This document shows positions 17,348 to 39,774 of a stretch of DNA of 39,774 nucleotides, one piece after another. The notes beneath the pieces are model-generated. The model saw only the letters and a program-made list of their open reading frames with translations. It did no database searches and had not been told where the DNA came from. The stretch comes from a bacterium (GTDB lineage: Bacteria; Patescibacteriota; Patescibacteriia; UBA9934; GWF2-40-263). Both the position numbers and the translations under genes were made by a program. Location of the stretch: contig JAGVFR010000010.1 in NCBI GenBank assembly GCA_020057555.1, positions 1 to 39,774 of the forward strand, in the 5' to 3' direction. Position 1 is the first letter of the stretch. Each line of letters starts with the position of its first letter.

Positions 17348-18922
17348 ATGCGACGAGTTTTTTTGACATTCGTTCTGCTTTTCACTTTTCTCATGCCAAC
17401 TCGCGTTTTCGCGACCTCAACTTGTTATTGTTATTTCGGAGAAAAAAACGATTGCGTGCAGACGACTATCGATGAAAACGCAATTATGGATGAATGCAAT
17501 CTTGCTTGTGAAACAAAATATCAAGGCACTTTCAAAAGTATAGATTTCTCTGATGAAGCTGGCAGCGCTAATGACGTTCTTGCATTAGTAGATTGTTCTT
17601 CCGCGCATGCTGACGCAAATGAAGCAGTCACAAAACCTTTTACAGGAGGTGTTATCCCAAAATTGAACGTTGATATTCCAACAGTTACTTTCACGCCAGT
17701 TCTTCAAAAAGGTGGAAATCTGTCAATCAACTTTTTGGGAGATTATATTCAGGGAGTTTATATTTATCTTCTCACAATAGCGGCTGTTATCGCTGTTGTT
17801 TACATAATGATCGGCGGTTTGAGATGGGTACTTGCCGCAGGAGGCGCATCGAACATCGGCGAAGCAAAAAAAATGATTCAAAATGCTGTGATTGGACTTG
17901 TTTTATTGTTAAGCGTTGTTTTGATTCTTAAAACAGTGAACCCTCAACTCGTAACATTTGATCCGTTTACACTTGAACGGATACAGGAGACCACAATTGA
18001 TGAAGCACAGCATGCGGAAAGTAACGCTGTTGAAGAACCAAGCGAACCAGCTCCAACACCGACTCCTGTACCGTCTCCGGCACCTGCACCAGAACCAGTT
18101 CCTGCACCAGCACCGACCCCATCTGCAGAAGAAGGAAAAAAAGTCACTCTCCCGTATTCAGATGGTGGAAGATTAAAAATGGAATATGTTCAATTACCTC
18201 TTGATGCTGGAGATGAATATATTACTCCGCCACGCGTCTGTACAATTCCAGTTCCGTCTGAACCAGTTTCATTAAGCGGTGTTGATATAGATACAAAATT
18301 TCTTGGTAATTTAGACTGTAACGTATCGTCGCAAACAAAAAATAAAAAACGTCCTGATAGTCAGATTCAAATGGTTGTTCTTCATCAAGGCTTCAAAAGC
18401 GATGGCGGTCAAAACGGAAGTATGTGGTTTCAAGACTATAATTATGGAAAAATTGTTGCATGTAAAACAAGCAAGTCCGGTGTTTTCAATTACAAAGCTT
18501 GTCAACGAAACGGACAAAAACTTGTAGTTCAACCAACCAAGAATCAAACACCAGTTTCTAGTCATTTTGCTGTTACTTTAGGCGGAACTATCTATCAATT
18601 AACTGATGTTGGTCATGTGACGAATAACTGCGGAGGTTGTGGCACAAACAAAACAGGAATTGGAATAGACCTCCAATACAACATAGAAAATGGAAAAAAT
18701 GTTTATTCAGAAGCACAATACAAAAGCGTTGCAAAACTAATCAAAGGCCTAAGTGAGAAATATAAATTTCAAATAAATGACGAAACAGTTAAAGCTCATT
18801 GTGAGGTTGGAAAACACACGGATCCGCCAGATTACGATCTCACTAAACTTGGAAAACTAATGGACGTAACTCTTGATATTGCCGCACACAGCGATTCACA
18901 GTGCAGCTGGATCGCGTCTTGA
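17348..18922 (+). CDS. VirB2-like pilin domain fused to a peptidoglycan amidase domain
   Basis: A 524-aa exported protein. A signal peptide spans residues 1-22 (ending RVFA). A Cys-rich segment follows (TCYCYFGEKNDC, DECNLACE). Residues 125-205 carry two hydrophobic helices with GGLRWVLAAGGASNIGEAKK between them, the typical TrbC/VirB2-like pilin layout. A Pro/Ala-rich linker spans about 219-255. The C-terminal part (about 335-515) resembles N-acetylmuramoyl-L-alanine amidases (Amidase_2/PGRP). It has the first zinc histidine in VVLHQG (near 345), a VSSHFAVTLGG strand, and HCEVGKHTDPPDYD near 483-492 for the remaining ligands. Amidases of this family cleave the glycan-peptide bond. The fusion suggests wall opening at the site of pilus or secretion assembly. 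It lies 2 bases after the DsbA-like gene, which may form its disulfides. Confidence 0.85.
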   Translation: MRRVFLTFVLLFTFLMPTRVFATSTCYCYFGEKNDCVQTTIDENAIMDECNLACETKYQGTFKSIDFSDEAGSANDVLALVDCSSAHADANEAVTKPFTGGVIPKLNVDIPTVTFTPVLQKGGNLSINFLGDYIQGVYIYLLTIAAVIAVVYIMIGGLRWVLAAGGASNIGEAKKMIQNAVIGLVLLLSVVLILKTVNPQLVTFDPFTLERIQETTIDEAQHAESNAVEEPSEPAPTPTPVPSPAPAPEPVPAPAPTPSAEEGKKVTLPYSDGGRLKMEYVQLPLDAGDEYITPPRVCTIPVPSEPVSLSGVDIDTKFLGNLDCNVSSQTKNKKRPDSQIQMVVLHQGFKSDGGQNGSMWFQDYNYGKIVACKTSKSGVFNYKACQRNGQKLVVQPTKNQTPVSSHFAVTLGGTIYQLTDVGHVTNNCGGCGTNKTGIGIDLQYNIENGKNVYSEAQYKSVAKLIKGLSEKYKFQINDETVKAHCEVGKHTDPPDYDLTKLGKLMDVTLDIAAHSDSQCSWIAS

Positions 18923-24429: not shown

Positions 24430-24974
24430 ACACCTTCAAGCCTAACAAGTTCAAGCAAGATTTCTTGATTTTCAACACTTACATTTTGTGGAGAATCTTT
24501 TGCGATTTCTCTTTGCGTGTTCAGTCGAATTGTCGCAAACCCTTTTGCTTCATCCATTTTTTCTACGGTCACTGTCAGAACTTTTGTTGTCACACCATAG
24601 TAGGTTTCAGGAAGAATGGACTTCGCGATAAAATTTTTCGTTTCTTCCGCAAAAGTATCAGTCATGAGCGGAAGCACATCAATCAAATTCTGAAAATTAG
24701 CTTCGTTTGAATAACTTCCATAACGCTCAACAAACATTTTCGCGACAGATGTTACACCAGCGGCCAGATTGCGCGTGTCTTGTTCTTGTTTGAGTTGTTG
24801 TTCTTTGAGAGTCGACACTATTTCTGTTTCATCAATTTGAGAAGTTTCAACTTCTTTTCCAACTTCTGGTGATTTTTCTGATCTAAACAAAAACCACAAG
24901 AGCCACAAAATCAACAACAAGAGAACAAGTGCAATCAAACCAATAACTGTAAAACGCATTTTTCGTGTTGTCAT
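24399..24974 (-). CDS. Single-pass membrane protein in the VirB-like operon, possibly VirB8-like
   Basis: A 191-aa protein with a short basic cytoplasmic N-terminus, one strong membrane helix (residues 8-30, IGLIALVLLLLILWLLWFLF) and an extracytoplasmic domain. That domain ends with beta-strand-like repeats (YYGVTTKVLTVTVEKMDE, GFATIRLNTQRE, EILLELVRLEGVWKVSSANW). The topology and terminal strands resemble NTF2-like/VirB8-type domains, but no diagnostic motif is visible and this is inference. Its start overlaps the VirB4 stop by four bases (ATGA). Confidence 0.8.
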   Translation of the reverse strand: MTTRKMRFTVIGLIALVLLLLILWLLWFLFRSEKSPEVGKEVETSQIDETEIVSTLKEQQLKQEQDTRNLAAGVTSVAKMFVERYGSYSNEANFQNLIDVLPLMTDTFAEETKNFIAKSILPETYYGVTTKVLTVTVEKMDEAKGFATIRLNTQREIAKDSPQNVSVENQEILLELVRLEGVWKVSSANWQ

Positions 24975-26953
24975 AATTCTTTAGCTTCTTTTTCAATATC
25001 AAATTTCTCTGCTCCTTCTTTCTCAACTTCTTCCTTTACTTCCGACTTCTCCTTCTTCTCTGCTTCCTCAAATTCTTTCTTTGCACGTTCTATATCAATT
25101 AATTGCTGTGGACTTGTTGTGACAAGCTGATCTTCTGTATAAGAAGCTACAACTTTGATTGCCGCGTGCTTCTGTCCAGCAAAGAAAATTCCTTCTCCAA
25201 CACCAGATTCCAGCAAAAGATATTTTTCTCCATCCGTAAGATTGAATGTTTTTTGAATGAGATCAATTGCTGATGGTGATTGTTTTAACAAAAGTTGCAA
25301 AGCGGAGTTAGTTACAATTGCTTGTCCATATGGTGAACGCAAAAAGTCGTTCACATCTTGAGTAATGGTCGTAACTCCAAGCCAATACTTTCGCGCACGT
25401 TTTACCAAAGCAAAAATAAATTTTGCCGAGTCGTCGTTTCCCATCAGCCACCATGCTTCATCAATAACTAGAATTCTTTTCTTACGTTCACTTCGCGTAA
25501 CATTCCAAATATAATTTATAATTGTGTAAATACCAACAGGTCGTAATTCATCTTCAAGATCTCGAACAGAAAACACAACAAGTTGATTTTTCATTTCAAC
25601 TGTTGTTGGTGAATTAAGCAAACCTGAAAATGTTCCGTCAGTATATTTTTCCAAACGCGCGACAATCGCTTCCGCGCCTTCCATTCCCTCAAGCACATCT
25701 TGAAAATCCTGCATGATCGGCGCTTCGATTTCAGCAAGCGATGTGAGATCGGGTGTGATATCTTTTTTCGCGTATGTTTCAATAAGAGCGCGATCAAGAA
25801 TAGAATCTTCCTCTGGCGTAAATCCCAATTTCCCTTCCTCACCGATCGGTGTGCCAATCATGATTCGCAACAGCCCCTTGAGAGTTATAACCGCGCTTCG
25901 AATAATATCATCAACTTTTGTTCCCTCTCCAACCGCTCGCGGTAAATCAAACGGATTCACTTTCGCATCAGACGCAAGTGAAACATTGATGTATGTTCCA
26001 CCAACTGCATCTGACAAATGTTTATATTCCATTTCAGGATCAATCACAATCACATCCGTTCCCATCATGAGAGATCGTAAAATCTCAAGCTTAACAGTGT
26101 ATGATTTTCCAGCTCCGGAACTTGCAAACACAACTGCGTTTGCGTTTTGCAAACTAAAACGATCAAACAAAATCAAAGAATTATTGTGACGATTGATTCC
26201 ATAAAGAATTCCATTGTCTGATGTGAGATCCGAACTGATGAACGGAAAAGAAGCCGCGATCGGCGACGTGTTCATGTTATACGTAATCATGAGCTCGTCA
26301 TTTCCAAGTGGAATTGTTGAATTGAAACCTTGTTCAGCCTGATAAAATCCAGCTTTTGTATAAATAAGCTTGCTTCCAAATAATGATTCAACCTCTGAAC
26401 TAAAACGATCAAGTTCCTCTTCGCTCTTCGCGTAAATTGTGACGTAAAAAGCAAATTGAAAAAAGTGTTCAATTCCTTGAGTGATCGCGTCACGCAGAGC
26501 TTCAATGTCACGCAAAGCAGTTTCAGAAAGAGGATCGCGAGGAGCGCCTCTTTCAGCGTCACCATAAACTTTTGCTTCAAGCACACCGACTTTTTTCTGA
26601 AGTTGCTTGAGAATTATATTCGCCTTCAATGGATAGAAAAACATTCCAACATCAAATGTTTTGTTGAGATTGATAAGCGTTGCTGACCAACCAAGTCCGA
26701 TATGTCGTGGATATGTAATAACGAAAATCGTGCGCACAAAAACTCCGGACAAAAGTAGTGATCGTGGTCGAACCTCAAACGCCGCTGGTGAAATTATGTC
26801 TTTTACAGTTACAACTCCTTTATGATAAATCCGCTCCTCTTCAAGAAGTTCGCGCTCTTTCTTTAACTTCACTTCCTCTGGTTTGATCTTTTGTTCTTTT
26901 GAAGGAGGAGGTGCTGGTAAAGATTCTTTGATTTTTCCAATTTCAATCGCCAT
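24971..26953 (-). CDS. VirB4/TraC-type secretion ATPase, C-terminal ATPase part
   Basis: A 660-aa ATPase that would power the type IV secretion-like machine at the inner membrane. It has Walker A SSGAGKSYTVK near residue 280, the following DPEMEYKHL motif typical of VirB4/TraC, and Walker B RILVIDEAWWLMG near residue 500. The late motif WLGVTTITQDVNDFL is also present. The C-terminus is rich in Glu and Lys. The N-terminal VirB4 domain is partly encoded by the separate upstream gene (26958-27641). The start at 26953 (MAIEIGK) is chosen because it follows the upstream stop by four bases; an ATG at 26983 would overlap that gene by 26 bases. No Shine-Dalgarno sequence decides between them. Confidence 0.92.
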   Translation of the reverse strand: MAIEIGKIKESLPAPPPSKEQKIKPEEVKLKKERELLEEERIYHKGVVTVKDIISPAAFEVRPRSLLLSGVFVRTIFVITYPRHIGLGWSATLINLNKTFDVGMFFYPLKANIILKQLQKKVGVLEAKVYGDAERGAPRDPLSETALRDIEALRDAITQGIEHFFQFAFYVTIYAKSEEELDRFSSEVESLFGSKLIYTKAGFYQAEQGFNSTIPLGNDELMITYNMNTSPIAASFPFISSDLTSDNGILYGINRHNNSLILFDRFSLQNANAVVFASSGAGKSYTVKLEILRSLMMGTDVIVIDPEMEYKHLSDAVGGTYINVSLASDAKVNPFDLPRAVGEGTKVDDIIRSAVITLKGLLRIMIGTPIGEEGKLGFTPEEDSILDRALIETYAKKDITPDLTSLAEIEAPIMQDFQDVLEGMEGAEAIVARLEKYTDGTFSGLLNSPTTVEMKNQLVVFSVRDLEDELRPVGIYTIINYIWNVTRSERKKRILVIDEAWWLMGNDDSAKFIFALVKRARKYWLGVTTITQDVNDFLRSPYGQAIVTNSALQLLLKQSPSAIDLIQKTFNLTDGEKYLLLESGVGEGIFFAGQKHAAIKVVASYTEDQLVTTSPQQLIDIERAKKEFEEAEKKEKSEVKEEVEKEGAEKFDIEKEAKEL

Positions 26954-26957
26954 AAAT

Positions 26958-27641
26958 TTACGAAGCTTCAACTCGAATTTCATCCAAACTTGTTAGTTTC
27001 TCTTCCTCAAACAAATCAGGATTATAAACATTATAATATAGTTCAATCAGACTTTGTGTATCTAAACGGACGGACGCAAGCCCCATGCTATTCAGCTCAC
27101 CCTGAACAACATCAACTCTACGCATCAGTTGTTCAAGACGATCAGCAAGCTGTTTTTCATTCAATTTCGCTGATGCGGCCGGCGACAAAGATTCAGACAA
27201 GCGAGTCCAAAAATTTTTTCTCTTGTTTGATAAAGGATCATAAGGCAGAACAACATAAAAACGTTTTTGCATTATCTGTCCAAGTTCTACAAGTTCACCA
27301 ACGAACGTTCTGTAATCAGAAATTTGAGCTCGTAACAAATCATTTTCTGATTTTTGTTCCTGTTCTTTAAGTGCGTTCATATACGCATCAATATTCATTC
27401 GACGAGACTGAATAACAATCTGAATTGGAAATTCAAGACTGTTCAAAAACGACATGTACGCTTGAATGATCGCTTCTTGTTCATCTTCAGACTTGAGCGC
27501 AAAATTTATACTTGAAACAAGCAAAACCGCCCGCACGGTTCCATCTTTAAGCATCACCATGTCATCGCGAATCTCGGCAATATCAAGATAACTCACTGTG
27601 TTTGGACCTGGCTTTGGTTTGGCAAGTTTTTTAGATTGCAT
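26958..27641 (-). CDS. TraC/VirB4 N-terminal domain protein, separately encoded
   Basis: A 227-aa protein with no membrane helix. Its start (YLDIAEIRDDMVMLKDGTVRAVLLVSSINFALKSEDEQ) and the FPIQIVIQSRRMNIDAYM segment resemble the N-terminal domain of VirB4/TraC-type ATPases, which contacts the membrane partners. It lies three bases downstream of the PrgI gene and four bases before the ATPase gene. This suggests that an ancestral VirB4 has been split in two, as is common for this cluster in Patescibacteria; that comparison is from memory. There is no Walker motif, as expected. Confidence 0.85.
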   Translation of the reverse strand: MQSKKLAKPKPGPNTVSYLDIAEIRDDMVMLKDGTVRAVLLVSSINFALKSEDEQEAIIQAYMSFLNSLEFPIQIVIQSRRMNIDAYMNALKEQEQKSENDLLRAQISDYRTFVGELVELGQIMQKRFYVVLPYDPLSNKRKNFWTRLSESLSPAASAKLNEKQLADRLEQLMRRVDVVQGELNSMGLASVRLDTQSLIELYYNVYNPDLFEEEKLTSLDEIRVEAS

Positions 27642-32248: not shown

Positions 32249-34192
32249 CTAAGGACTACATTCAACTGCAGTCCCGATTTTGAGCAAAGCCGAACATCCT
32301 GAAGCTGGACCGTCAGTCGCAGACCATGTTGTTAGATCTGCTTTTGTGTAAACGACGCCTTTGTATTCGATCACAATACTTGCGTCTGGATCAAGACTCG
32401 CGGTTGAATCGTTTCCAGCGCAAAGCCAGGCATAGGCAGGACTGCCTTCGCTTACGTTTAGCCTGAAACCACAGACCCCTTCTGGAACTTGATCGAATGA
32501 CATGGACACATCGTTGTCCGAATCGAACGCGGATTTGTCCCACCATCCACCAAGCACAGATTTGTTACTGTACATTTGAACGTTGAGCATCCGATCTGCC
32601 GAATTTGGATAGCTTACGGTGAAAGAGGCAGATGTTTTGTCAGGAGATTCCTCGACTCGCTGACGCTCGCTCGGGATGACAGGTGAATATGCTTCCTCCT
32701 GCTGTTCCTCTGCTTCAGCCTCTTCGTCATCCTCCTGAAACCCAGCCATCTCAAACTCACCAGAGTTGTCCTGATCAGAAGGTGGTTCGTACTTAGCCAC
32801 AAACATGGAATGGCCACACGTCTCCACTATCTCACTTGAAATGCAGTACATGCCGCTAACACAACCGCCGACAAATGGTTGAACGGACTTTATCACACCG
32901 TTTTCAACCTCAATGATCGGTCGCTGTCCGAAATTCATCTTAAGAAATGTTTTCCAATCCTTGATTGGCATTGCCGCGTTTTGAGCCGCAACATACACAT
33001 CACTCTTGGAATACTCCTTCAAAAGTGTGCCATTGCGGAATTGAGCTTTTCCGCTTATCTCTCCCCATTGAGAAAGATACGGATCCCACCACGCAACTTT
33101 TGGCGGCGGATTTGCGGCCGTGTAGGACAATCCCCAGGATCGAAGCACTGATTCCCATCCAACATCGTTCACTTTGATTCGATATCGATCCCACTGGTTT
33201 GGCGCTCCGACAACAAGCCAAAGTGTTCCGATCGGATCTCGAAATGCCGCGACAAGTCCTTTTTCACTGAACGGAATGCCCATCTGATAGCATTCGAGTT
33301 CTTCATCAGAGATCATAACGAGATTTGAGAAATCATACACATGGCTCCAGAACACTTCCTCATTTTTGAACCAACGCAGTTCGCCATCTTCAATCAGGTA
33401 AACCTTTGCGTCTTGCGCGGTCTTAACGATTGTTCCATTTGGATGTCCAAACGCAACCGGAAGCGCTGACTGATAGTACTTCCCAACAGGTTCATAATCT
33501 CCTTTCTGGCCAGTTCCAAGCCCACACACAAACTGTCCGCTCGTGAGTGTCTTTTCTTCGCCGTAAGAATCGGAAATGATGTAAGTCGTGGAAATCGACT
33601 CGCCGTTTTCCGCCGGAAGCCTTGCATCTCCTTTGTGAAGACCGATGTGCACATGGTCACCGGTGCACAATCCAGTGCAACCCTCGATACCGATAAGTTG
33701 TCCAGCAGTTACTTCACATCCGTCGCACGCAAGAATCTCATCCAAGTGCGCGATGACAACGTAGTAACCATCTCCGATGTCAATGCAAATGTGATTTCCA
33801 AACCCGCTTCCGGTTTCAGCTTCAGTGTGAACATGCACGATTCCGGAAACTGGCGCGTACATTTCTTCACGTTCTGAGTTTGAAGTGTCGAAATCAAGGT
33901 CGTAACGCGTGCAATTTTGTTTGTGGCTATAGTCTCCAGAAACTCCTTGCGTGCACAAAAGCAGAACGCCCTTTGGAAACGGCATTTGCAACTCGGTGTA
34001 GCTACCGCCACCTTTGTTGGAATCGTGGTTGAATGGTTCGACAGGATCTGCGGCCGACTCATCGTCCACTTTCATCTCGTCATAAGATGACTTGTTGATT
34101 GTTGGCTTTGCGCCAACGCGTTGGAAACATCCACCTAGAACAAACACGATCAGAACCGGCAGAAACATTCTGCTCTGGAACTTGGTGAACAT
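32249..34192 (-). CDS. M23 (LytM-type) metallopeptidase lipoprotein with repeated C-terminal modules
   Basis: A 647-aa lipoprotein. The signal peptide ends in lipobox LGGC (Cys 22). The M23 peptidase domain spans about residues 70-200. It has the H-x7-D zinc motif (H90 and D98, in HKQNCTRYDLD), a conserved histidine in VVIAHLDEI (H149) and the HxH motif in GDHVHIGLH (H180, H182). Active M23 enzymes cut peptidoglycan cross-bridges. Several extra cysteines (CDGC, EGCTGLC) suggest disulfides. Residues 240-430 hold three related modules beginning GTIVK, GTLWL and GTLLK, each followed by a WF/Y-type strand, perhaps for wall binding. Near residue 510 the peptide VIPSERQRVEESP marks a dispersed palindromic repeat. 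AGAGGTG precedes the start. It has its own promoter and a possible leader peptide. Confidence 0.9.
   Translation of the reverse strand: MFTKFQSRMFLPVLIVFVLGGCFQRVGAKPTINKSSYDEMKVDDESAADPVEPFNHDSNKGGGSYTELQMPFPKGVLLLCTQGVSGDYSHKQNCTRYDLDFDTSNSEREEMYAPVSGIVHVHTEAETGSGFGNHICIDIGDGYYVVIAHLDEILACDGCEVTAGQLIGIEGCTGLCTGDHVHIGLHKGDARLPAENGESISTTYIISDSYGEEKTLTSGQFVCGLGTGQKGDYEPVGKYYQSALPVAFGHPNGTIVKTAQDAKVYLIEDGELRWFKNEEVFWSHVYDFSNLVMISDEELECYQMGIPFSEKGLVAAFRDPIGTLWLVVGAPNQWDRYRIKVNDVGWESVLRSWGLSYTAANPPPKVAWWDPYLSQWGEISGKAQFRNGTLLKEYSKSDVYVAAQNAAMPIKDWKTFLKMNFGQRPIIEVENGVIKSVQPFVGGCVSGMYCISSEIVETCGHSMFVAKYEPPSDQDNSGEFEMAGFQEDDEEAEAEEQQEEAYSPVIPSERQRVEESPDKTSASFTVSYPNSADRMLNVQMYSNKSVLGGWWDKSAFDSDNDVSMSFDQVPEGVCGFRLNVSEGSPAYAWLCAGNDSTASLDPDASIVIEYKGVVYTKADLTTWSATDGPASGCSALLKIGTAVECSP
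32638..32682 (-). repeat. Dispersed palindromic repeat inserted in the M23 gene
   Basis: On the minus strand the segment begins CTGTCATCCCGAGCGAGCG and ends GTCGAGGAATCTCC. It is recognisable as a widespread bacterial palindromic repeat that often yields the in-frame peptide VIPSERQRVEESP, as it does here, in a low-complexity linker. Confidence 0.7.
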
Positions 34193-36028: not shown

Positions 36029-37582
36029 TCAGCGTACCTTACACAATTCGACACTGCTGTTGCAGTTGATGCGCGGTGATTCGCCAGAACGAACGATAAG
36101 ATTTGGAATACTGACTTGTTCTGCATCACGTCCAGTGAATTGGACAATGACTTTGTATGATCCAGGCACAACCTGACATGGAAGTTTATACTTTCCTGAC
36201 TGTCCAACAAGCCAAGCTTTGACAGAATCGTCATCTGGCGCTGAAAAGCCAACACGCACAGTTTCGATCGGTTTGATCGCTTCAGGTTCGATCATTTTCG
36301 GTTCAACCACTTTCGGTTCGATCGGTTTTGGCTTTTCGGGCTTGATAGTTTTCGTTTTTGAAATGGCTGATTCAATCTCGACTCTTTGATGTCGAACTTC
36401 TTGTTCCAACAGACGCAGATCATGGCCTTCGACAAGCTCAGGCAATAACGGAGTTGAAGACACCGGCAACCACCTGTCGTCCCCCTTAGAAATGGGGACG
36501 TTCGCTGGTTCGTTTGAGAAATACACGACAGCGCTAGCTATTGCAATGATCATTACCAGTACAAAAGCTAATAACCGAGCAAGCGCACCGCGTCGAGCTT
36601 TACGCACACGACGCAGATGTTCGTCGCTGTCGAAGCTATCAAACTCATCGGTTTGAGCAAAGCCCATGCCTGACGAATCCGATGGTGTTGGTTTTGGAAG
36701 AATTCGTAACGGATTCCCTTCTCCACCAAACAAGACTGTCTGTGAAGATTTCGGAAGTTCCGAAAGAGCTAACTGAAGAGCATCACGCAACTCGCGTACA
36801 CTGCCATATCGAGCTTCTGGCTTGAGAGCTGTTGCTTTGATGATGACGCTACATAAAGACTCCGGAATCCTGTTCATGAGCTCTGGCTTGTCTTCGATAG
36901 TTGGCGCGAAAAAGAATCCAATTGGCGGTTCTTCCCCGCGCATGATCGCCCAGAGTGTCACGCAAAGAGCATGAATGTCCGCGCGTTCATCAACCAAAGC
37001 CGCTCGGTCGATCTGTTCAGGAGCCATGTAGCCAAGACTCCCCATACCGATTCCGTCTTTGGTTTGCCGAGTTCTCGCATCATCCATGCGGGCAATGCCG
37101 AAATCGGTTATCTTTGGAAAACCATTCGGGGTGAGCAGTATGTTGTCTGGTTTGATGTCGCGATGGATAACGCCTTTTAAGTGCGCTTGTTCAATACCAG
37201 CGCACACAAGAACCATCACATTGACTGCGGTATCAGGCTGAAGAGCTCCATTGTTCTCAACGAAATTCCACAGATCTCCACCATCAACCCACTCAAGCAC
37301 GATGTATGGAAGTCCATCAATCTCATCAAGGTCGTAAACCTTGACGATCGAGGGATGTTCGATCTTGCGTATGATGCGCGCTTCCTTTCTGAAACGAGCA
37401 AGCACTTGAGGATTTTCGAGTTGATCAGGATTGATAATCTTGATCGCGACAGGAAGATCAAATCCTGTGTCAACCGCGTAGAAAACCGTCCCCATACCGC
37501 CTCTGCCAACCAGACGCTCAACACGGAAACGGCCACTGCGATGTGTTTCAAAAGCAGTTTTGATCGTTTCCAAATCAATCAT
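36029..37582 (-). CDS. Hanks-type serine/threonine protein kinase with membrane helix and extracellular domain
   Basis: A 517-aa transmembrane kinase. The glycine loop is VGRGGMGTVF near residue 25 and the ATP-binding lysine is in PVAIKII. The catalytic loop HRDIKPDNILL is near residue 140 and DFGIARMDD near 160, followed by a GSLGYMAPEQ activation segment; all catalytic residues are present. A single membrane helix lies near residues 330-352 (LARLLAFVLVMIIAIASAVVYF). The outside part has a Pro/Lys/Glu-rich linker (KPEKPKPIEPK) and a PEGA-like beta domain (PGSYKVIVQFTGRDAEQ). The start at 37582 is set by AGAGGT seven bases upstream; the frame extends to 37627. It overlaps the stop of the preceding secreted-protein gene by eight bases, so the two are translationally coupled. 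Confidence 0.93.
   Translation of the reverse strand: MIDLETIKTAFETHRSGRFRVERLVGRGGMGTVFYAVDTGFDLPVAIKIINPDQLENPQVLARFRKEARIIRKIEHPSIVKVYDLDEIDGLPYIVLEWVDGGDLWNFVENNGALQPDTAVNVMVLVCAGIEQAHLKGVIHRDIKPDNILLTPNGFPKITDFGIARMDDARTRQTKDGIGMGSLGYMAPEQIDRAALVDERADIHALCVTLWAIMRGEEPPIGFFFAPTIEDKPELMNRIPESLCSVIIKATALKPEARYGSVRELRDALQLALSELPKSSQTVLFGGEGNPLRILPKPTPSDSSGMGFAQTDEFDSFDSDEHLRRVRKARRGALARLLAFVLVMIIAIASAVVYFSNEPANVPISKGDDRWLPVSSTPLLPELVEGHDLRLLEQEVRHQRVEIESAISKTKTIKPEKPKPIEPKVVEPKMIEPEAIKPIETVRVGFSAPDDDSVKAWLVGQSGKYKLPCQVVPGSYKVIVQFTGRDAEQVSIPNLIVRSGESPRINCNSSVELCKVR
36426..36442 (-). repeat. Dispersed repeat encoding PELVEG in the kinase linker
   Basis: CCTGAGCTTGTCGAAGG on the minus strand yields the peptide PELVEG. 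This is a widespread dispersed bacterial repeat, inserted here in the extracellular linker after the membrane helix. Confidence 0.6.
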
Positions 37583-38465
37583 CTGGCGACCTCTCTTCTT
37601 CACCTCCGAAGCCGAATTGAAATCCAACTCCGATGCCTGATAGAACTACTGCAAGTCCACCTGTACCAACAGCTGTCCAACCAAATGCGTTAGCGCGGTC
37701 ACGATGTCCTGACAAGTCAGAATCAGGAGTTGACATCGAGTTGAACAGAGACTTTTCACGAAGCGCCAAACCATAGAACGTGCCTGCGACCAAAGTTGAA
37801 ACTCCTGCCGCAATGTACCACGTGATTGGTTTTTTCCATGTCGGTACTGTGTCAATTCCCAAGTCCTTGGCTGTTACACCAAGAATGTTCTGACCCCAGA
37901 TTGGCAATTTCTCACCAGGCTGGATGTATCGGGTTTCGATCCACGCACCTTTTGGGCCATAGACTTGAATGATGAATGGCGTTGATGAAAGCCGCGGTGC
38001 ATTTCGAACTCCTCCGACAATCGCGTATCCACCCTCTGGCGCAAAAACGGATTCTGAAATTCCATCTTCAACGCTTGCCGCTTTTGCGTAGAATTCGTGA
38101 AGTCGATGTCCGATCGGCGCCACTGACTCTGGAAGAGAGTAACCAGGTTCAAGTCGTCTTGCCGCGTGAAACTCCGCAATCACACGAGCGTCATTGTGAC
38201 GAGTAAATGCGTCGAGCGCCATGAGCCGATGAAAAGCCGCGGCGTCGGACGGGCTGATCGGTTCTGTAATACACACAATGATTTGTTCTCGCGCCCGTTG
38301 TGCATGCTGAAGCAATGCCGCAACGTTCATGTCAGCAAATGCGTTTTCGCCTTGAATTGCGGCTCCTTGGATTTCGGATGCGGCAACAGTCTTGGCGCAG
38401 TCAGCGTTTGCCGAAACTGCAATGGTTGACACCAACATGGCGCACAAAAGGCTGAAATATCGCAT
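37575..38465 (-). CDS. Exported protein with C-terminal membrane region, partner of the kinase
   Basis: A 296-aa protein with a clear signal peptide (MRYFSLLCAMLVSTIAVSA, cleavage near ANA-DC). A helical, TPR-like region follows (residues 30-120, ALLQHAQRAREQIIV, ARVIAEFHAARRLEPGY). A beta-rich part (residues 130-200) contains STPFIIQVYGPKGAWIE. Two hydrophobic helices come near the C-terminus (WYIAAGVSTLVAGTFYGLAL, AFGWTAVGTGGLAVVLSGIGVG). The set-up resembles secreted proteins encoded with Ser/Thr kinases in other bacteria; the function is unknown. The start at 38465 is supported by GGAGGT just upstream. Its promoter overlaps the end of the broken DGR reverse transcriptase. Confidence 0.85.
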   Translation of the reverse strand: MRYFSLLCAMLVSTIAVSANADCAKTVAASEIQGAAIQGENAFADMNVAALLQHAQRAREQIIVCITEPISPSDAAAFHRLMALDAFTRHNDARVIAEFHAARRLEPGYSLPESVAPIGHRLHEFYAKAASVEDGISESVFAPEGGYAIVGGVRNAPRLSSTPFIIQVYGPKGAWIETRYIQPGEKLPIWGQNILGVTAKDLGIDTVPTWKKPITWYIAAGVSTLVAGTFYGLALREKSLFNSMSTPDSDLSGHRDRANAFGWTAVGTGGLAVVLSGIGVGFQFGFGGEEERSPDD

Positions 38466-38502: not shown

Positions 38503-38531
38503 TTTTTATCACAATTCCATCGCAAAGTCAA
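38503..38531 (-). promoter_or_regulatory. Promoter of the exported protein-kinase operon
   Basis: On the minus strand TTGACT (38526-38531), a 17-base spacer and TAAAAA (38503-38508). A small hairpin (CTCGC/GCGAG, 38478-38497) lies in the leader just before the ribosome binding site. Confidence 0.5.
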
Positions 38532-39013
38532 TGTAATGTAATTCACCTTGTAATCTACTTGTATTTCCATATTTCATAAGCCCTAAATAAGACTGAATTG
38601 TTTCCGAAGTTGAATATGCTTCAATTCTCCGTAACATCCGTCGTTTTGTAACAGTCCGTAATACTCGATGATCTGTAAAATTAACCCAACCAAGAAAATC
38701 AACACCTGAAGCGATTGTTTTCAAAAAGATTTTATTTGATGGACTCAAACAATTTTTTATCCTCCGACAGAAACACGAAATCATAAGTATATCGAACGAA
38801 GTATCTTATTTTGAGTTTGTGTTTCACAAATTGATCAAACCGATTCATATACACATTCGAAAAAATTGCAATCCGTAAATGCGATGCAATCAAATTCTTC
38901 TTGCTCATTCTTTTTGAAACAAACTCGATCGAACAAAACAAATTTATTGCATTATCCGAACCGCTTGCAGAGGTCGGAAGAATGCTTGGTGGTTGGCTTG
39001 GACAACTGACCAA
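38509..39013 (-). pseudogene. Remnant of a DGR-type reverse transcriptase
   Basis: Two minus-strand frames together cover the C-terminal part of a DGR-clade reverse transcriptase. The first (38732-39013) contains IFSNVYMNRFDQFVKHKLK and then YFVRYTYDFVFLSEDKK. The second (38509-38784) continues with ASGVDFLGWVNFTDHRVL, RTVTKRRMLRRIE and YLGLMKYGNT, the conserved thumb end. The N-terminal fingers and palm motifs are missing, a frameshift or deletion lies near 38740-38785, and the YADD box reads YTYD. ACT TAT GAT differs from GCT GAT GAT by one base in each of two codons and loses a catalytic Asp. It lies just downstream of the template repeat, the normal place for a DGR reverse transcriptase. 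Confidence 0.88.
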
Positions 39014-39068
39014 GTCTCCTCAAAAACAAAACTCTCCCAACAATACAGCGGGAGAGAAATGAAGAGAG

Positions 39069-39194
39069 TTGCGAGCATCGCCGCGGGATTCTGGTCATTC
39101 CAGTCATTGTCGAGCCAGTTGTAGTTCCAGTTCCACGCACCGTCGTTCCAGTACAGGTAGCGAACGTACAGGTTGCCATTCGGGTTGCGATAAA
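39069..39194 (-). repeat. DGR template repeat (TR)
   Basis: A 126-bp sequence, adenine-rich in AAC/AAT codons on the minus strand, aligns gap-free with 39558-39683. It holds 33 adenines; 21 are replaced in the variable repeat and no other base differs. Translated it reads like the target (YRNPNGNLYVRYLYWNDG), but it is a template rather than a gene: no promoter or full-length protein belongs to it. Confidence 0.95.
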
Positions 39195-39268
39195 TATATG
39201 AAACACCGTCCATGCCACCACCCTTCGAATACTCTCTGGGTTGAATCGAATTCGGTATCTTTAATACC

Positions 39269-39409
39269 TTAGTGTTTCATACCAAGTATCTTCATTTTTG
39301 GATGAAGGTTCTGCATACGCGACGCTGTTTGGAAACTTTCATCCCAAACACTCTGCACGTACGGATACCAGTTTCGGTGGCCAACGATTTTCAGCGTTGA
39401 CTGATTCAC
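39269..39409 (-). CDS. Possible 46-aa ORF or decayed accessory gene between TR and VR
   Basis: A GTG-initiated frame, MNQSTLKIVGHRNWYPYVQS and onward, ends MKILGMKH. GGAAG lies close upstream of the GTG. In many DGRs an accessory gene (avd) lies between target and TR, but this frame is far shorter than Avd and has no motif I can match. It may be a remnant. Apart from it and the terminator, the 39195-39546 gap shows nothing else clear. Confidence 0.25.
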   Translation of the reverse strand: MNQSTLKIVGHRNWYPYVQSVWDESFQTASRMQNLHPKMKILGMKH

Positions 39410-39436
39410 CTACTTCCAAAACAATTCTATCATGAA

Positions 39437-39486
39437 AACAAAAAGGCACCGTAACCTATGTTGACCTTCAACATAGGTTACGGTGC
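39437..39486 (-). terminator. Strong terminator hairpin downstream of the variable gene
   Basis: A perfect 19-bp stem (39446-39464 with 39468-39486) closes a 3-base loop; the minus strand continues CTTTTTGTTTTC. It ends the DGR target transcript before the TR. Confidence 0.85.
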
Positions 39487-39538
39487 AGTAAGTACAAAGG
39501 ACTAAGGATTTAAGTGCCGAACGCACAAGTAACTGAAG

Positions 39539-39552
39539 CCTTAGGGCTAAGG
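39539..39552. other. Small palindrome six bases past the variable repeat
   Basis: CCTTAG GG CTAAGG can form a cruciform directly downstream of the VR and over the stop codon of the target gene; no equivalent follows the TR. In the Bordetella phage DGR a hairpin at this position promotes retrohoming, so this is a candidate target-site element. Confidence 0.5.
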
Positions 39553-39774
39553 GACACTTGCGAGCACCGCCGCGGGACGCCGGTCATTCCAGCCACGGTC
39601 GAGCCAGTCGCAGCCCCAGTCCCACGCACCGCCGCCCCAGCACAGGCAGCGAACGCACAGGCTGCCATACGGGTAGCGATAAACCGTACCCCAGAAGTAG
39701 ATGTAGTGGGTATTCCCGTTCTCGTCGACCTTCCAGTCTTCGGGGATGATCTCGGGGTGAGCGATGAGGTAGTC
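39547..39774 (-). CDS. DGR target protein, C-terminal 75 residues (partial, runs off right edge)
   Basis: The final 75 codons of a gene whose start lies beyond the window. The fixed part reads EIIPEDWKVDENGNTHYIYF. The diversified C-terminus reads YRYPYGSLCVRCLCWGGGAW and ends PAAVLASVP. The Trp/Gly-rich pattern with variable residues spaced between fixed Trp, Leu and Asp residues is typical of the C-type-lectin-like binding domains used by DGR targets in Patescibacteria. Codon use here is clearly more GC-rich than in the housekeeping genes, suggesting different ancestry. Its ligand and location in the cell are unknown. Confidence 0.9.
   Translation of the reverse strand, partial: DYLIAHPEIIPEDWKVDENGNTHYIYFWGTVYRYPYGSLCVRCLCWGGGAWDWGCDWLDRGWNDRRPAAVLASVP
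39558..39683 (-). repeat. DGR variable repeat (VR)
   Basis: A 126-bp partner of the TR at 39069-39194. There are 21 mismatches: on the coding strand 17 are A to G, two A to C and two A to T. The 9 bases at its 3' end are identical to the TR and would be part of the initiation-of-mutagenic-homing region. Confidence 0.95.

Follow-up and report, generated by a model that had tools for sequence, protein, structure and literature searches.

The question raised by this locus is whether two short repeats near the end of a contig, differing from each other at adenines, belong to a diversity-generating retroelement (DGR), and if so, which machinery could drive it. The window, i.e., the whole stretch of 39,774 nucleotides that was analysed, comprises all of contig C6 of a draft genome of 849 kb (96% complete, 30 contigs). 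The named relatives of the reverse transcriptase (RT) of this genome are mostly Candidatus Uhrbacteria and further Patescibacteria, and the host is a Candidatus Uhrbacteria-related patescibacterium. The features of the DGR, together with genes from the remainder of the window and related features on other contigs, are collected in Table 1. A phage origin of the DGR was considered and dropped, as a scan of viral contigs with the N-terminal half of the RT on contig C17 (RT17) found no relative.

Table 1. Positions of the features discussed in the text; plain numbers refer to the window, numbers after a colon to the named locus.
Feature	Position	Strand	Basis or remark
TR6, template repeat	39069..39194	(-)	the TR that best accounts for VR6 and for the VRs of C17 and C22; orthologous TR in G036:C76
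VR6, variable repeat	39558..39683	(-)	C-terminal ~42 target residues; gap-free 126-bp match to TR6
Target gene, 3' end	39547..39774	(-)	75 codons, remainder past contig end; family alignment
Terminator-like hairpin after target gene	39446..39486	(-)	19-bp stem, then T-run; consensus scan, inverted self-match
Hairpin CTCTCCC...GGGAGAG	39032..39056	(-)	just 3' of TR6; read from sequence; kept beside other repeat ends
avd6 remnant	38858..39062	(+)	C-terminal half only; Pfam bAvd E=0.0014
RT6 remnant, middle	38738..38884	(-)	matches RT17 residues 197-246, E=3.7e-8; YTYD replaces YxDD
RT6 remnant, C-terminal	38524..38736	(-)	matches RT17 residues 264-330; frame differs after 53-bp gap vs G036 RT
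T4SS-pilin/amidase protein gene	17348-18922		
TraG-type ATPase gene	24971-26983		
M23 peptidase gene	32249-34192		
Ser/Thr protein kinase gene	36029-37627		
Complete target paralogue (C17)	L007:7353-7958		201 aa
RT17 (C17)	L007:12034-13068		sole RVT_1 match of the genome
RT17 tract	L007:12520-12528	(-)	G9, in frame
VR22 (C22)	L008:92-220		3-bp insertion vs TR6
avd9 tract (C9)	L009:7280-7289		10-base G/C tract, in frame
TR orthologous to TR6 (G036:C76)	L075:386-512		region 86% identical
Left end of C30	L118:1-99		looks like end of a DGR repeat
G9 tract near RT C-terminus (G069:C23)	L155:2400		RT nt 911
Intra-RT tract carriers, all three frame states			RT17, L090-L096, L139, L147, L148, L171-L182, L199, L200, L218-L229

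The two repeats, TR6 and VR6, are both read on the minus strand, start 489 bp apart and align without gaps over 126 bp. They differ at 21 positions, and in the minus-strand alignment all 21 are adenines in TR6, none being C, G or T. TR6 contains 33 adenines among its 126 positions. The other 105 positions are identical between the repeats, including all 93 of the 93 non-adenines, and the chance of 21 out of 21 mismatches falling at adenines is P = 8e-16. The homology stops at the ends of the repeats and the copies are therefore not paralogous genes; whole-gene paralogy was ruled out, the alignment failing beyond both repeat ends. The first-pass annotation had described this pair and read it as a DGR. 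Its coordinates, the gap-free alignment and the restriction of the differences to adenines were all reproduced, and neither of the findings that would speak for another explanation, non-adenine mismatches or whole-gene homology, was seen. The hairpin flank of TR6 recurs elsewhere, with a 92% match to C30:49-99 and 87% to one site in G023. The left end of C30, which has a hairpin of the TR6 type, looks like the end of a fourth DGR repeat, either a TR or a VR.

VR6 forms the 3' end of an open reading frame which leaves the window at its right edge, as had been proposed. This frame and its complete paralogue on C17 place the VR in the 3' end of a protein-coding target, as is characteristic of DGRs. 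Within the taxonomic family, 15 of 43 genomes contain members of the target family, and a TR often follows a few hundred bp downstream. As to the C-type lectin fold of DGR targets, the protein had no convincing sequence match in Pfam, NCBIfam or PDB. The number of hairpins in the terminator scan was not above the shuffled expectation; the stem following the target gene is long, however.

TR6 accounts for three VRs, and three targets, in this genome. The VR on C17 has 12 mismatches to TR6, 11 of them at adenines and one G>A, and the VR on C22 has 23, with 22 at adenines; the three copies differ from one another at A sites. Deviations from TR6 in the targets of G008 are likewise mostly at adenines. 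In VR22 the insertion of 3 bp represents an in-frame length change within a VR. Contigs C6 and C22 stop at an identical point in the target gene (window:39774, L008:1), and ahead of the VR the target copies (L008:1, window:39774, L007:7570) agree almost completely over ~90 bases, because of which the two contig breaks look repeat-induced. The N-terminal target half found on C27 has only 74% protein identity to the C17 copy, and the contrast with the ~90-base near-identity suggests that conversion between targets extends past the segment matched by the TR.

The changes from TR6 to VR6 comprise 17 A>G, 2 A>T and 2 A>C, a bias which had been considered stronger than usual. This did not hold. In 38 TR/VR pairs from the window and its relatives, 642 of 673 mismatches were at adenines, a share that is partly due to selection of the pairs with an adenine-bias filter. 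The distribution of the 642 changes (433 A>G, 128 A>T, 81 A>C) is not affected by this filter in its A>G share. For the BPP-1 RT in E. coli, C opposite A makes up 59.3% of the misincorporations (PMC12875486), and C misincorporated opposite A yields A>G. On these two grounds the A>G bias is usual.

The reading as a DGR stood as far as the TR/VR signature is concerned, while the idea of a self-sufficient cassette did not, as the adjacent RT and Avd are deletion remnants. In an alignment to the G036 RT (L101), the first ~193 codons and a further 53 bp of RT6 are missing, and the catalytic motif is YTYD in RT6 versus YADD in G036. Over the segment that spans target, TR and avd, the orthologous cassette of G036 has 86% identity; its avd is longer, with the N-terminal part in frame. 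The match of avd6 to bAvd covers positions 67-105 of the 107 in the profile and lies under the curated cut-off. RT and Avd have been lost in cis by deletion, and most of the loss can be accounted for by one deletion spanning the point at which the 5' ends of avd and RT abut. The cassette holds no functional DGR-type RT, only remnants in cis, and is therefore classed as a DGR with decayed machinery and not as an autonomous DGR. Avd is in the same state, whereas intact bAvd genes are found on C17 and C9.

Could TR6 still be in use? RT17, the only intact RT of the genome, is adjoined by a bAvd gene (Avd17) and by its own TR17, and at the end of C17 another copy of the TR17 repeat begins. Of solved structures, the closest to RT17 is 8ub7, 'Reverse transcriptase' (E=1.4e-45), which we take to be the BPP-1 DGR RT complex. 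The cassette on C9 has a TR, a VR and Avd, and its RT core is deleted. In the C9 pair 17 of 28 differences are at adenines, so that ordinary drift is visible too, which accords with the deleted RT. If TR6 is still used, RT and Avd would have to be supplied in trans, and RT17/Avd17 was the only candidate found. If TR6 followed the established DGR pathway, its RNA copy would be reverse-transcribed by the RT-Avd complex with errors at adenines, and the adenine-mutated cDNA would take the place of VR6 in the 3' end of the target; RT17 and Avd17 would here act on TR6 in trans. The G036 RT of the RT6 type is ~49% identical to RT17, and specificity of RT-RNA recognition may speak against such a supply. 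In addition, an intact RT6-type gene may be absent from the 96%-complete draft and not from the cell.

The strongest competitor is that the DGR in the window is extinct, i.e., that no homing has taken place since avd and RT were deleted, with TR6 and its VRs now fixed in sequence and RT17 acting on TR17 only. RT and Avd are indeed broken in cis, and RT17 possesses a TR of its own. The pN/pS of the RT6 and avd6 remnants against G036 is about 0.18-0.28. As a drift clock for placing homing relative to the loss of RT6, the remnants retain an appearance of constraint; the deletion may therefore have occurred recently, and perhaps later than the VR pattern arose, in which case the identity at 93/93 non-adenines needs no later homing. 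What speaks against extinction is that TR6 and VR6 have no drift outside adenines and the VR on C17 a single non-adenine change. Moreover, the use of degenerate loci in trans has a precedent in Thiohalocapsa, in which degenerate DGR loci are served in this way (PMC10907252). We place extinction a little short of an even chance.

In RT17-like RTs of relatives, a break of the reading frame recurs at a fixed point. It is caused by a simple-sequence tract that lies after motif A (FDIKKFF) and before motif B (G[LIV]PIGN) and is either poly-G 7-12, (GA)7-12 or (CT)16. Among 108 distinct DGR RT genes, the second half of those with the tract was in frames 0, +1 and +2 in 7, 11 and 8 cases, respectively, i.e., 7/26 in frame, against 78/82 in frame and 4 out for those without it (Fisher p 6e-12), some of the loci having been chosen for short ORFs, which inflates the out-of-frame share. 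A frame-blind pattern search of 381 genomes of the class gave 12 matches, each in a different genus, of which 3 were in frame and 9 were not, and the reversed control pattern gave 0/381. In a tree of RT N-terminal halves the intra-RT tract fills one large clade including RT17, with five state changes overall. The poly-G pattern matched only G000 and G024 in a sample of the phylum, and intra-RT poly-G is therefore restricted. One RT (L198) is out of frame and lacks the tract; it carries an insert where the tract would be and has the look of a genuine pseudogene. The G9 tract in L155, close to the C-terminus of the RT, may represent a third location.

In most other patescibacterial DGRs a tract lies in the overlap of the 5' ends of divergent avd and RT genes. 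The avd start codon is upstream of the tract, and an in-frame ATG follows the tract in only 1/56; tract length therefore decides whether Avd is made. In 18/56 avd is in frame (ON) and in 38 it is OFF; the ON share is one third, which is what a freely slipping tract would be expected to give. A survey of 93 patescibacterial DGR loci gave 58 with a tract in the avd/RT overlap, 22 with an intra-RT tract, 0 with both and 13 with neither. Exactly one tract was thus present in 80/93 loci, and the exclusion of both positions has a Fisher p of 1e-12, computed without phylogenetic correction. The tract types overall were G7-15, (GA)7-20, (CT)16 and (GT)11. Strict tracts numbered 37 in 80 kb around RTs, compared with 2 in 504 kb of these assemblies away from RTs, and one of these two was also an avd tract. 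Of eight RTs from other phyla none was counted as having a tract, though one has T8 in the RT. Two alleles from different species, 88.5% identical, have G7 and G15, respectively, with a deletion nearby in one of them. The tract of avd9 lies just after the start codon, and about 58 loci related to avd9 have a poly-C/poly-G, GA or GT tract just after the avd start. In the cassette of the window the corresponding tract region at the avd/RT 5' ends is deleted.

The marks of contingency loci, a coding tract at a conserved site, the occurrence of all three frames and intact downstream sequence, were found with the relatives, RT17 and avd9. The tracts are best read, from their sequence and distribution, as slipped-strand ON/OFF switching of a hypermutator. 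A single simple-sequence tract in the machinery would by its length set the reading frame of RT or avd, and DGR activity in the group would be phase-variable through it. It is likely, in our judgement, that patescibacterial DGRs are phase-variable hypermutators, in which slippage at one tract toggles targeted hypermutation per cell, a two-tier bet-hedging where the mutator is first turned on and the target then mutated. RT17, the sole RT found that could serve TR6, would carry such a switch, at present ON.

Alternatively, the tracts could direct programmed recoding by ribosomal frameshifting or transcriptional slippage, giving a fixed fraction of full-length product and no switch in the DNA. 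Poly-G can slip in transcription or translation, and the out-of-frame alleles of the first poly-G cases were all +1; a programmed +1 frameshift in RT was dropped once +2 and in-frame tract alleles appeared. Recoding is unlikely given that frames 0, +1 and +2 are all found, that both locations are also taken up by dinucleotide tracts, with as many as 20 units, that the in-frame share of avd is that of a freely changing length, and that closely similar alleles differ as G7 and G15. Marginally less probable still is that the RT and avd genes found out of frame have become pseudogenes or owe their state to homopolymer errors in assembly. All assemblies are draft metagenomic, and G036 and G006 have contig ends at the tract or close to it. 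However, the out-of-frame C-terminal halves contain 2 stops in 2808 residues, retain YxDD in 19/19 and have a dN/dS of 0.03-0.11 (three pairs, dS high), the VRs beside them have adenine-only changes (e.g., 23/23, 21/21, 19/19), RTs without a tract are nearly always in frame, and strict tracts are concentrated near RTs with no match of the reversed pattern.

Slipped-strand switching thus remains our reading of the tracts. We regard the account as a whole, a bona fide DGR whose machinery was lost in cis, with a possible supply in trans and relatives that appear phase-variable, as very probably correct.

Among known systems, the CPR DGRs of 'clade 2' (Roux et al., 2021; PMC8144416) are alike in being cellular, in a CPR host, with TR, VR, RT and Avd and a small target in which no domain is recognisable, whereas the window cassette is without RT and Avd in cis. 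No mention of a frameshift or pseudogene was found in the text of that paper. Thiohalocapsa PB-PSB1 (PMC10907252) likewise has several DGR loci per genome, some with machinery missing or pseudogenised, and several targets per TR; diversification was measured in reads there, whereas here it is deduced from assemblies, and phase variation is not mentioned in that work. The BPP-1 DGR (bRT/Avd) has in common adenine mutagenesis, a bAvd-family protein and, in E. coli, the dominance of C opposite A (PMC12875486), while the present DGRs are cellular, with avd divergent from RT and overlapping it at the 5' ends, and with several targets per TR. The contingency loci of Campylobacter, Neisseria and Haemophilus are similar in their coding poly-G or dinucleotide tracts with states across three frames. 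They differ in that the gene switched here would be the RT or Avd of a targeted hypermutator and not a surface or modification gene, and in that switching is deduced from sequence. The open literature, a scope outside which most subscription papers fall, gave no description of a DGR in connection with phase variation, slippage, homopolymers, frameshift or simple repeats, and priority for tract-controlled DGR machinery is not certain. What is new is the tract-controlled machinery of the relatives and of RT17; the element in the window is itself of an ordinary, known DGR type.

The window alone is of modest value, adding to the known CPR DGRs a further one that has three targets and whose machinery has decayed. 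To our knowledge, it is largely open how cells restrain a retroelement which rewrites their own genes. If the reading of the tracts is true, a slippery tract in RT or avd would be a simple, heritable and reversible restraint on the DGR, and it would explain why RT and Avd genes of patescibacterial DGRs often look split or seem to lack a start codon.
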